Of a stretch of DNA of 64,000 nucleotides, positions 46,265-49,518 are shown in pieces. Under the pieces are notes generated by a model that searched no databases, was not told the origin of the DNA, and saw only the letters and a program-made list of their open reading frames with translations. The DNA comes from Pantoea sp. WMus005 (GTDB lineage: Bacteria > Pseudomonadota > Gammaproteobacteria > Enterobacterales > Enterobacteriaceae), in contig NZ_JACBXU010000005.1 in NCBI RefSeq assembly GCF_013415305.1, positions 62,001-126,000 of the forward strand. The letters are read 5' to 3'. A program made the position numbers and the translations under genes. Every line of letters begins with the position of its first letter. The stretch's first letter is position 1.

Positions 46265-47113
46265 TTACTGAGCCGAACTATCGGCATTGTTCAGAGCCAG
46301 TGACACCGCCAGCGTCTGCGCCAGGCAGAGTGAGGCAACCTGCGAACGGAAGCCATCGACCTGCGCTTCGCGTACCACAAAGCAGACATCGCTGAAAGCG
46401 GCCAGCGGGCTGACCTGGCTGTCGGTAATAGCAATCTGATGCGCGCCACGTTTGGCACCCATTTCCACCACTTCGACCGCTTCACGTGCATAAGGCGAGT
46501 AGCTGATCGCAATCACCACATCTTTCGGGTTTACCAGGCTGAGCTGCTCGGTAAACATCCCGCCCAGGCCATCAATCAGAAACGCGCGACGCTCCAGGTG
46601 ACGCAGCGCGTATACCAGATAGGAGGCGACGCTGAAAGAGCGACGCAGGCCGATCACATAGATGTTCTCCGCCTCATTCAGCAGTTTTACCGCCTTGTTC
46701 AGTTGCTCAGGATTAACCTGCATCGCCAGCTGCTGCAGTGCCTGGCTGTTGACCATAGTAAAAACGTTAAGGATCTCTGCCGGACTTTCAGGCGCACTGG
46801 CGCTGTCATCCGTGGAGGTCTGACGAAACAGACGCGCGCGCTCGGTATAGTTGACCGTCTCCTCCATCAGGTGCTGACGAAAAACCTGTTTCATTTCGTT
46901 GAAACCGCTGAAGCCAAACGCATTCGCAAAACGGATCAGTGTCGACGGCGGCACATCGGCCTGCTGGGCAATGGAGGCGACGGTGTCGAAAGCAATACTG
47001 TTACTGTTATCAAGGATGTAGCGCGCAACCTGTTTAAGACGCTTGCTCAGCGTTTCGTAGCGGCGACGAATATCGTCCTGCAAGAGAGAAAGTTGGGTGG
47101 GATTATTGTTCAT
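46265..47113 (-). CDS. iolR: RpiR-family regulator, likely IolR
   Basis: 282 residues from the ATG at 47113 (a GTG precedes it). N-terminal RpiR helix-turn-helix 'ILDNSNSIAFDTVASIAQQADVPPSTLIRFANAFGFSGFNEMKQVF' (about 30-85) and a C-terminal SIS phosphosugar-binding domain ('NIYVIGLRRSFSVASYLVYALRHLERRAFLIDG', 'VVIAISYSPYAREAVEVVEMGAK'). In Salmonella and relatives the iol repressor IolR is of this family and responds to an inositol catabolite. Its place between iolB and iolC supports that role. A dyad ATTTCAT-N6-ATGAAAT lies 98 bases upstream. Confidence 0.85.
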   Translation of the reverse strand: MNNNPTQLSLLQDDIRRRYETLSKRLKQVARYILDNSNSIAFDTVASIAQQADVPPSTLIRFANAFGFSGFNEMKQVFRQHLMEETVNYTERARLFRQTSTDDSASAPESPAEILNVFTMVNSQALQQLAMQVNPEQLNKAVKLLNEAENIYVIGLRRSFSVASYLVYALRHLERRAFLIDGLGGMFTEQLSLVNPKDVVIAISYSPYAREAVEVVEMGAKRGAHQIAITDSQVSPLAAFSDVCFVVREAQVDGFRSQVASLCLAQTLAVSLALNNADSSAQ

Positions 47114-47179
47114 CACTTCTGCCCGTATAATTAGAATAATGGCTGCATAATGAGCGCTATATTATCAGATGGATGGAAA

Positions 47180-47230: not shown

Positions 47231-47399
47231 GGTTCACAGATTAGCTTTAGCGCCCGATGCGTGACTTTTCGCGAACAATGTCAGGATGAAAGCCGGGATG
47301 AAATGCCAGCAGGCTGGGAGGGTAACCAGTAAAAAACGCCATCCCGGTTGGGATAGCGTGATGAAAAAGTCTGTCTCTGCGTGCTATGAGTTCGCGCCG

Positions 47400-47508
47400 G
47401 CGCAGGTAACATGGTCAGATTGGAAAGTCGCTTAAGCCATCCATGGCCGCTCATCCCGCGCCGTCCCTGGCGCGGGACGCTTTGCTCCTCTGACCATGTT
47501 ACCTGCGC
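47400..47508. repeat. 109-base nested palindromic element (MITE/BIME-like)
   Basis: Outer arms of 20 bases are perfectly complementary (47400-47419 and 47489-47508). Inside sits a second perfect 9-bp GC stem (47454-47462 with 47469-47477, 6-base loop) and a CCATGG-centred stretch near 47440-47450. It encodes no protein. Such cruciform elements in intergenic DNA are typical of repeated extragenic palindromes or miniature transposable elements. No other copy is visible in this window. Confidence 0.65.
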
Positions 47509-47604
47509 GTTGAGCTTATTTGTTGCTGCAACATTTACCCTGCCTTGAGTAAGTCAGCAGTCTGAGGCCATCGCGGTTGAGACAGGTCATAGCAGAGCAG
47601 CAAA

Positions 47605-49518
47605 TCAGGCGCGGGCAGCGCGCCAGTACTCAATCAGCCGCAGATAGTTGCCTTTTACGGTTTCTATCAGTGCCTGGTCGTCCAGTTCACCCTGTAACCA
47701 CTGGCGCGAAGGCTGGCCAAAGATGGTGCGACCCACCGCAAAGCCTTTCACCCACGGCGCCCTGGCCGCAGCCGCAAAGCCCGCTTTAAGCTTCTCTTCG
47801 GGTGCATCCAGACCGAGTAACAGAATGCCGCGACAGTGGGGATCCTGCTGCTCAATCAGCGTGCTGATTGCCTGCCAGCTCTCTGCCGACAGCGGTGGCA
47901 GTTTCCACCAGTCAGGCTGAATGCCCAGACTGTAGAAATGCGTGAGCATATCAAGGTAATAGGCTTCATTCTTATCCGGATTGCTTTCCGGCAGAATGAC
48001 CTCCAGCAACAGTTCATGACCGCTTTTGTTACAGCCATTCCAGACGTCGAGCACCACATCATCCTGCTCTTTACGCAGTTCAGCGCTGTCATGGGGATGA
48101 TAAAACACCAGACATTTCACTACGTGCTCGGCTGGCCAGTCGATCAGCTGCGAGCCAATGTTGCCATGCTCCAGGCGCAGCGGACGTGAGCTCGGCAGCT
48201 CAATCGGGCGGCCAATCCACCAGTTCTTACCGGTGATGGCATTCAGCGCTTTCTGTCCATAGGTGGTATCCGCCAGAATGCCGCTTTTGTTCTCTAAGCC
48301 CGCCTCTCCGGCAGCCTGCTGAGCGGCTTCCAGCAGCAGCAGTTTCAACTGTGGAATGCGGCTCTCGTCGACACCGGCTTCCTGCGCCATGTCCGCCAGC
48401 TGTTTGCGATGATCAAAAGCGAAAACGTTCAGCTCGGGCCACGCCTGCTTGCGGGTGGTCACGCGGTGAAGATGGTTAAGGCGGCTATCAAGATCGGGAC
48501 GTTTCACCGCTTTGTCGCGGCTCAGGAAGTCATCCAGTTCCGCTTTTGTTGGCATGGCAGGGGCACAGCCGTGGCGTGAAACCACCAGCGCTCCGCAGGC
48601 GTTGGCGTAACGGCATGCCTGCTCCCAGCCTTCATCATTCAGCCAGCCGCGCAGCAGGCCAGACATAAAGGCATCGCCTGCGCCCAGCACATTGAGAACC
48701 TCGACGCGCACGCCAGTGTGCAACTGAGTCTCTTCCCAGCTATCCGGAATATCCCCTTCAAACACCACGCAACCCAGCGGACCGCGTTTGCAGACCAGCG
48801 TTGCCTGACTTGCCTTACGCACGTTCTTCAGCGCAGTCAGGGTGTCGGTGCTGCCACCGGCAATATGAAACTCCTCTTCGGTGCCAACGATCAAATCGAA
48901 GTAGTGCACCACTTCCTGTAACTGCTGCGTAACCTGGGAGGACTCAATGAAACGCGTTTCACCGTCACCCAGAGAGGTCAGTCCCCACAGGACGGGGCGG
49001 TAATCAATATCCAGCGCCGTGCGCAGACCGTTGCGGCGGGCGATATCCAGCGCTTTCAGCACGGCTTCACGCGTTTGTGGATGCGATAAGTGCGTGCCGG
49101 TTACCGCTACCGCACGGGCAGAGGTAATAAAGGTTTCGTCGATATCTTCCGGCACCAGCCCCATATCAGCACAGTTATCACGGTAGAAAATCAGCGGAAA
49201 AGTCTCTTCATCTTTAATCCCAAGGATTACCATGCCGGTCAGACGTTTTGCATCGGTGATCAGGGCATCGGTGTTACAGCCAACACGCTGCAACGCTTCA
49301 CGCAGAAAGCGACCATTATGCTCATCTCCCACCCGCGCCAGCATCGCCGATTTGAGCCCCTGAATCGCGGTGCCATAGGCGACGTTGCCCGACGATCCGC
49401 CCAGATATTTCGCAAAGGAGGTAACATCTTCCAGTCGCGCTCCGATTTGCTGGCCATAAAAATCAACGGCGATGCGCCCGATACAAATCACATCAAGCGG
49501 CTTCTGTTGTGTACTCAT
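47605..49518 (-). CDS. iolC: 5-dehydro-2-deoxygluconokinase fused to DUF2090 aldolase-like domain
   Basis: 637 residues. Residues 1-325 are a PfkB-family kinase: 'CIGRIAVDFYGQQIGARLEDVTSFAKYLGGSSGNVAYGTAIQGL' and the signature 'VLNVLGAGDAFMSGLLRGWL' with catalytic Asp. Residues about 340-637 are a DUF2090 domain ('LNVFAFDHRKQLADMAQEAGV', 'FYHPHDSAELRKEQDDVVLDVWNGCNKSGHELLLEVILPES', 'VKGFAVGRTIFG') resembling class I/tagatose-type aldolases. It would phosphorylate 2-deoxy-5-keto-gluconate and the second domain probably supplies the IolJ aldolase step, since no iolJ is present. Divergent from iolD across 545 bases. Confidence 0.9.
   Translation of the reverse strand: MSTQQKPLDVICIGRIAVDFYGQQIGARLEDVTSFAKYLGGSSGNVAYGTAIQGLKSAMLARVGDEHNGRFLREALQRVGCNTDALITDAKRLTGMVILGIKDEETFPLIFYRDNCADMGLVPEDIDETFITSARAVAVTGTHLSHPQTREAVLKALDIARRNGLRTALDIDYRPVLWGLTSLGDGETRFIESSQVTQQLQEVVHYFDLIVGTEEEFHIAGGSTDTLTALKNVRKASQATLVCKRGPLGCVVFEGDIPDSWEETQLHTGVRVEVLNVLGAGDAFMSGLLRGWLNDEGWEQACRYANACGALVVSRHGCAPAMPTKAELDDFLSRDKAVKRPDLDSRLNHLHRVTTRKQAWPELNVFAFDHRKQLADMAQEAGVDESRIPQLKLLLLEAAQQAAGEAGLENKSGILADTTYGQKALNAITGKNWWIGRPIELPSSRPLRLEHGNIGSQLIDWPAEHVVKCLVFYHPHDSAELRKEQDDVVLDVWNGCNKSGHELLLEVILPESNPDKNEAYYLDMLTHFYSLGIQPDWWKLPPLSAESWQAISTLIEQQDPHCRGILLLGLDAPEEKLKAGFAAAARAPWVKGFAVGRTIFGQPSRQWLQGELDDQALIETVKGNYLRLIEYWRAARA

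Follow-up and report, generated by a model that had tools for sequence, protein, structure and literature searches.

A YPAL/RU-2-like repeat with IS1182-type ends at the iolC terminator of Pantoea sp. WMus005

A nested palindrome of 109 bases lies close to iolC in Pantoea sp. WMus005, and the question it raises is whether it belongs to the iol locus or is a mobile repeat that settled there. We analysed it within a stretch of 64,000 nucleotides, here called the window, in whose numbering positions are given. An earlier note on this DNA had placed the palindrome at 47400-47508 and taken it for a possible mobile or extragenic repeat, with a geometry like that of MITE, BIME or ERIC-like elements. 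The palindrome is real. Its outer arms (47400-47419 and 47489-47508) are complementary at 20 of 20 positions with 69 nt in between, and the inner 9-bp GC stem, TCCCGCGCC opposite GGCGCGGGA (47454-47462 and 47469-47477), appears both in the sequence and in the folds. There is also a third small hairpin, GCC-ATCCAT-GGC at 47436-47447, absent from the earlier note. Measured against 200 shuffles with the same dinucleotide content, the DNA fold of the 151-nt region has a z of -6.6 and the RNA fold of the 109 nt a z of -11.0 on the minus strand and -9.5 on the plus strand; 0 of 200 shuffles was as good in any of the three tests.

The palindrome is only the core of a longer repeat of about 207 bp, 47359-47565, whose ends were set by the terminator duplications of other copies and by an end-to-end alignment with RU-2, the YPAL repeat of Yersinia. 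A covariance model built from 33 aligned copies, R1, matches the window at 47388-47520 with 133 bits, the sole place there with an R1 match at E<=1. The right end agrees at 14 of 16 positions, counted from the sequence, with the IS1182-group end TTTGTCAGCAGTCTGA, while the left end is decayed and misses 5 nt that are present as TGAGATTGTTGAAAA in the orthologous copies of G060 and G033. The parts of the locus are as follows.

46265-47116, minus strand: MurR/RpiR-type regulator gene on the other side of the repeat from iolC, which we take to be iolR-like (NCBIfam RpiR-type matches all below cut-off)
47338-47356, no strand assigned: left copy of the target-site duplication, the iolC terminator hairpin, transcribed on the minus strand
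47359-47565, plus strand (orientation as in R1): whole repeat, a YPAL/RU-2-like MITE of about 207 bp
47359-47370, plus strand: left terminal repeat, decayed, placed by alignment of orthologous copies
47400-47419, plus strand: 5' arm of the outer stem, 20/20 complementary and covarying across copies
47422-47427, plus strand: 5' side of the second stem, P2, GGAAAG, pairing with 47480-47485
47436-47447, minus strand: hairpin A, with the minus-strand hexaloop AUGGAU at 47439-47444
47454-47477, minus strand: hairpin B on the 9-bp GC stem, with the minus-strand hexaloop AGGGAC at 47463-47468
47480-47485, plus strand: 3' side of P2, CTTTGC, pairing with 47422-47427 with one mismatch in this copy
47489-47508, plus strand: 3' arm of the outer stem, 20/20 complementary and covarying across copies
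47550-47565, plus strand: right terminal repeat, TAAGTCAGCAGTCTGA, placed by orthologue alignment and comparison with IS ends
47567-47585, no strand assigned: right copy of the target-site duplication, decayed, 16/19 to the left copy
47605-49518, minus strand: iolC, bifunctional 5-dehydro-2-deoxygluconokinase/aldolase (NF047869, 897 bits, cut-off 600)

The earlier note had called the element unclassified and set it apart from YPAL, and here the comparison points the other way. No Rfam family matches the window at curated cut-offs; a permissive search of the window finds RF02770 (Ysr224) at 39 bits and E 1e-7, under the curated cut-off of 70, and L097, a copy outside the genus but within the bacterial family, reaches 70.8 bits with RF02770, above that cut-off. 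The window element aligns end to end, as the reverse complement, with the published 168-nt RU-2 sequence (z 10.9). The score is 140 against a mean of 50, a standard deviation of 8.3 and a maximum of 75.5 in 300 shuffles. RU-2 itself has two ANGGAN hexaloops. On these alignments kinship with YPAL/RU-2 is well supported, the element here being a longer variant. As its length departs from about 167 bp, we class it as a variant of the YPAL kind and not as YPAL proper; a YPAL* form of 130-136 bp is listed in the accessible portion of PMC2267715. Ysr224 and YPAL, we infer, may be one family, and the accessible part of the literature on Ysr224 reports its Yersinia copies as transcripts.

How often the repeat occurs bears directly on whether it belongs to the iol locus. 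In the window's own genome a DNA search finds 8 places and R1, at E<=1e-6, finds 20 that are distinct; the longer R1 list of 31 rows at E<=1 also counts some places again on the reverse strand and takes in partial matches of 18 nt. R1 matches 50 of the 61 genomes of the genus, own genome included, and leaves 11 without a match; with the best 55 candidates scored per genome, the high per-genome counts are to be read as "at least". Other draws extend this outward, with matches in 13 of 149 family genomes and in 41 of 295 genomes drawn from the order, 35 of these 41 outside the family (own genome included in both); the order draw scored the best 11 candidates per genome, and many of its matches are weak with rough E-values. 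A DNA search with the core matched 23 of 60 relatives, every one in the genus. Among plasmids, 31 records match, 30 of them named Pantoea, and phages give no match at E<=1e-5. There is likewise no blastn match at E<=1e-5 among 20,395 E. coli records, in agreement with the earlier view that the element is not an ERIC or REP of the E. coli type; at blastn sensitivity, identity with ERIC, REP or BIME is ruled out.

Some copies have neighbours or inserts of their own kind. At L162, L164, L151, L175, L192 and L013:1164-2303, copies lie close together in opposite orientation. At L013 (G015) seven matches alternate in orientation, with successive minus copies 332-343 bp apart, as in a BIME-like mosaic array. 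A long form (L124, L126, L129 and G000:C10:1923568-1923782) has some 75-85 nt inserted within hairpin B, and this insert contains another hairpin with an ATCC loop and one resembling a terminator. The G033 copy at the iolC site is of this long form, and the otherwise similar copy of G060 is without the insert.

The multiple copies in the genome and the genus fit the earlier idea of a mobile repeat. The simplest competing explanation is an ordinary bidirectional iol terminator, present once and conserved in place, and it is true that the repeat sits between iolC and its neighbour and that its left flank is a terminator. Such a terminator, however, would not occur at 20 places in its own genome and match 49 other genomes of the genus. 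Empty sites, which the earlier note had proposed to look for in close strains, exist as well: G026, G066 and G061 keep the iolC terminator and have no repeat at that site, and four other species (G031, G015, G084, G020) carry a copy there in the opposite orientation. Copy number and the species without the repeat rule out a single-copy iol terminator, and we leave this explanation a negligible probability.

The flanks had been described as lacking a clear target duplication. One is visible because the true ends of the repeat are used: gccatcccggttgggatag (47338-47356) and gccatcgcggttgagacag (47567-47585) agree at 16 of 19 positions. The pair of duplicates also occurs at the iolC site of five further species (G016, G060, G081, G025, G033). 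Judged by this comparison, the target of the window insertion is the iolC terminator, and we read the opposite-orientation copies of G031, G015, G084 and G020 as a separate insertion into the same terminator. Within the insertion common to the six species, a stretch of stem reads ACATGG/CCATGT in two species and ACACGG/CCGTGT in three, and G081 is a mismatched intermediate between the two. Given three stem states, this intermediate included, the change on both sides occurred in place; selection, palindrome correction and exchange with another copy are alternative causes.

A preference for hairpins is found across the genus. We scored the flanks of the best-scoring 93 of 117 copies for direct repeats, using left and right flanks of different copies as the control, and a direct repeat (score>=11) lies at the expected ends in 18 of 93 copies as against 28 of 3,678 mismatched pairs. 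L010 and L069, both among the 18, represent a single insertion that two species share. Between the model match and the duplicates lie 25-35 nt on the left and 41-46 nt on the right. The duplicated pieces measure 16-37 bp and are mostly hairpins, with a median perfect stem of 7.5 bp versus 3 in random sequence of the same lengths, and a perfect stem of >=6 bp in 14 of 18 versus 1.2% of random sequence. Many look by eye like intrinsic terminators, with an A-run, a hairpin and a T-run. At >=11/16 a left end can be identified in 20 of the 93 copies (control 1.3%), a right end in 50 (control 3.1%); both are kept in only 16 of 93, which are 212-217 bp long, and a duplication is recognisable in only the 18 given above.

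The genes beside these copies are arranged in a biased way. A simple, uncurated ORF caller places 30 of the 117 copies over a predicted ORF of >=90 aa and leaves 1 without a flanking gene; the 86 classifiable copies lie between convergent genes in 65 cases, co-directional genes in 20 and divergent genes in 1, compared with 55 of 257 convergent among background gaps (>=20 nt, from the window and 400 kb of one relative). The direction of the bias is plain, although some copies are orthologous, so that the very small binomial values overstate it. The repeat is multi-copy and, by these uncurated ORF calls, intergenic, as YPAL/RU-2 is, and the 18 copies with variable-size duplications at dyad symmetry resemble that family too. 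One convergent intergenic gap (L407-L435) is a hot spot: from one Pantoea species to another its copies vary in orientation and in their arms, and some species that lack the repeat have unrelated hairpins there.

What could have moved the repeat? IS1182-family elements make duplications of variable size and prefer palindromic targets, a background that we tested on the genomes at hand. A transposase of this family scores above cut-off in 5 of the 61 genus genomes, and one of these elements, L231 in the genus member G006 (transposase NF033551, 498 bits), has the ends TCAGACTGCTGACGAA and TTTGTCAGCAGTCTGA, which agree with the ends of the repeat at 15/16 and 16/16. A hairpin stands on either side of it as a direct repeat of 34 nt, a few letters of which overlap the IS ends. 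The other four elements have different ends (10-11/16 at best) and no such direct repeat. We found 50 loci related to the L231 transposase and examined the 23 with long matches, leaving out 27 that were fragments or further Photorhabdus copies. In 21 of the 23 both ends agree at >=12/16, the exceptions being L266, a partial match in Yersinia aldovae, and L269; 14 of the 23 have a direct repeat scoring >=15, a hairpin by eye, although two of the 14 (L277 and L279) have identical flanks. The 21 come from Izhakiella, Serratia, Providencia, Photorhabdus, Xenorhabdus, Klebsiella, Edaphovirga, Pseudomonas, Rhodanobacter and Paludifilum.

The repeat thus has ends that match an IS with a transposase, as a MITE of the IS1182 family would, the left end of the window copy being decayed. 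No autonomous IS1182 element of the L231 kind was found in its own genome (best match 34 bits), and G006, which carries L231, is without an R1 match to the repeat at E<=1e-3; co-mobilisation is therefore not seen today. Run over 26 IS loci, R1 gives two weak matches (24 and 17 bits), both outside the IS, and the interior of the repeat is absent from the IS. A simple deletion derivative of IS1182 is accordingly unsupported as the origin of the repeat. We strongly infer that a transposase of the IS1182 type moved it. Our search of the open-access literature found no link between YPAL and IS1182, nor, in the accessible parts of the texts on IS1182 and miniature inverted elements, a link to a YPAL-like repeat.

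The best explanation, which we hold at a probability of roughly 0.85, is a MITE of YPAL/RU-2 lineage with IS1182-type ends, inserted into the iolC terminator and carrying a conserved multi-stem interior, putatively for CsrA/RsmA binding, a part graded separately below. Comparison between genomes bears out the ends, the target duplications, the hairpin targets, the copy number and the existence of IS1182 elements with the same ends and target habit, and on that footing the identity, mobility and target of the repeat appear well supported. The repeat would be non-autonomous, carrying the ends of an IS1182 subgroup that targets hairpin-forming DNA and being moved by the transposase of that subgroup. 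Insertion into the intrinsic terminator of iolC would have duplicated the hairpin and left a terminator on both sides; with a terminator kept on each side, it presumably did little harm. A minus-strand transcript of the interior might then act as a decoy or anchor that binds CsrA/RsmA.

The interior is a conserved structure of several covarying stems with two minus-strand ANGGAN loops. RNAalifold on the 33 copies gives 34 consensus pairs, 20 of them with both sides changed in at least one copy, and P2 varies as GG/GC/GT-AAAG against CTTT-CC/GC/AC. We counted hairpins with a perfect stem of >=3 and a minus-strand ANGGAN hexaloop: in the genus 108 of 117 copies have at least one and 50 have two, and in ten genomes of other families 40 of 40 copies have at least one and 32 have two, a count biased upward because the distant copies were found with R1, whose model includes the loops. 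The other strand of genus and distant copies has none. Among 5,000 random 113-mers, 16 have at least one such loop, one has two, and 30 have one on the other strand. The informative part of the pattern is the free N position (T, G, A or C) beside A and GGA. RsmE/CsrA bind ANGGAN hexaloops according to the accessible part of PMC7652899, and the pattern expected of CsrA/RsmA sites, ANGGA in hairpin loops and usually two or more of them, is found here, the window copy having AUGGAU and AGGGAC by sequence. In the predicted minus-strand fold of that copy, loop B is an open hexaloop and loop A narrows to a UGGA tetraloop by one extra A-U pair. Conservation of the interior through CsrA/RsmA binding to a minus-strand transcript, as decoy or anchor, is the cause that we favour on these motifs, though as a tentative proposal that we rate somewhat below even odds. 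A cis-regulatory CsrA role at neighbouring genes is not claimed: the 20 co-directional copies show no orientation bias, 9 having the ANGGA strand as sense and 11 as antisense.

The same loops and stems can be read differently. The family could be a stand-alone regulatory RNA, a Ysr224-like sRNA or CsrA sponge selected at the RNA level site by site, with mobility incidental. The hexaloops, the strong covariation, the Ysr224 transcripts reported for Yersinia in the accessible text and the in-place change from ACATGG/CCATGT to ACACGG/CCGTGT through the G081 intermediate would all suit it. It accounts poorly for the direct target duplications, for a presence that varies by species, and for a bias toward convergent genes without a strand bias. 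The outer stem also speaks against it, as selection on RNA of one strand predicts more G-T than A-C mismatches; in 119 unique copies there are 1,899 Watson-Crick cells, 40 G-T, 44 A-C and 140 other mismatches, no excess of G-T, although neutral decay of dead copies would likewise give equal counts. We regard this reading as unlikely. The interior might instead be needed as DNA, in cruciform or single-stranded form, for transposition, its loops being read by the transposase and not by CsrA. Mismatches without strand asymmetry are compatible with this, as is the targeting of hairpins by IS1182-family transposition, in our IS survey and in the accessible part of PMC4923244. It is at odds with the IS1182 elements that share the ends and lack the interior, and with the same interior in repeats that have other ends, and we find it rather doubtful, a little less so than the stand-alone RNA.

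This last point concerns copies in other families, which keep the interior and by eye differ in their terminal sequences. G326 has CTAAATAACTG with its complement on the opposite side, a similar left end occurs in G301, and G227 has CCTGTCACTT-like ends, all by eye. The arms differ as well. Seven copies in G321 (L351, L357, L363, L368, L373, L378 and L326) have long, near-perfect inverted arms that are specific to each copy: the core is 97% identical, and over 24 nt the arms are 93.5% complementary within a copy (83-100%) but only 33% identical between copies, with a perfect arm of 15-30 bp in 5 of the 6 copies read. In G488 the six copies have cores 100% and arms 94% identical between copies, and the five of G489 are intermediate (core 94%, arms 71%), one copy being without complementary arms. 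Five Pantoea species share an orthologous site where the flanking genes differ by 10-17% while the 20-nt arms vary at a single base; with arms nearly unchanged there, fast arm drift is a poor explanation for G321. No alignable empty site was found for locus L363 of G321: its flanking genes occur at 72-77% identity in other species of that genus, with intergenic parts unalignable.

Near-perfect arms and covariation could also arise mostly by palindrome correction through template switching instead of by selection. The symmetric mismatches and the near-perfect yet unrelated arms of G321 are in keeping with it, but orthologous arms that differ at one base in five species beside 10-17% in the flanking genes are not, and the conserved loops are left unexplained. 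We judge it improbable, more so than the readings of the interior above. A further idea, speculative and in our view somewhat less likely than CsrA/RsmA binding by the Pantoea repeat itself, is that the interior is a portable ANGGAN-hairpin RNA module recruiting CsrA/RsmA. Miniature elements whose ends are unrelated would carry it in several bacterial families of the order and scatter CsrA sites over 3' regions; in at least one lineage, G321, the arms of each copy look as if made at insertion.

In the accessible part of a 2007 review of small repeats (Delihas 2007, PMC2229807), transposase-driven movement stands without experimental support. For the MITE proposed here, agreement both in the ends and in an uncommon choice of target points to one particular transposase group, so that mobility can be tested in a laboratory strain. 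Duplication of a whole terminator would explain why insertions between convergent genes are tolerated. Should CsrA bind the conserved loops, sites for this global regulator would be supplied by a mobile repeat, and if the interior is a portable module, the Csr regulon could be buffered or rewired by it.

Among known systems YPAL/RU-2 (167-168 bp; RF02770) is the closest, with the same order of parts, both ends alignable and two ANGGAN hexaloop hairpins, and in the accessible part of its description it likewise inserts beside or across dyad symmetry with variable duplications. Compared with YPAL of about 167 bp, the Pantoea copies are longer (207 bp in the window, 212-217 bp in the 16 copies with both ends recognised), with longer subterminal regions and an outer stem that is longer and different. 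ERIC (RU-1) is also an enterobacterial intergenic palindromic MITE, but its sequence differs, the ends of the Pantoea repeat have no TA by eye, and E. coli gives no match. TwoAYGGAY RNA (RF01731), a proposed CsrA binder, has two A-N-GGA-Y loops as the Pantoea repeat does; the CsrA proposal for it, as a related RNA, is made in the accessible part of PMC4333381. Its minus-strand match in the window is weak (21.9 bits, E 0.41), far under the curated score of 43, and membership is not claimed. L231 and its relatives in the IS1182 family resemble the repeat in having 16-bp ends of the type TCAGACTGCTGACAAA and in duplicating the hairpins into which they insert, whereas the Pantoea repeat has no transposase and the L231 group no structured interior. 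Finally, IS1272/TnSha1, of the IS1182 family in Staphylococcus, also targets terminator hairpins, in both orientations at one terminator, but by the accessible part of the same account (PMC4923244) IS1272 removes a piece of the hairpin and leaves no duplication, whereas in the Pantoea repeat the whole hairpin is duplicated.
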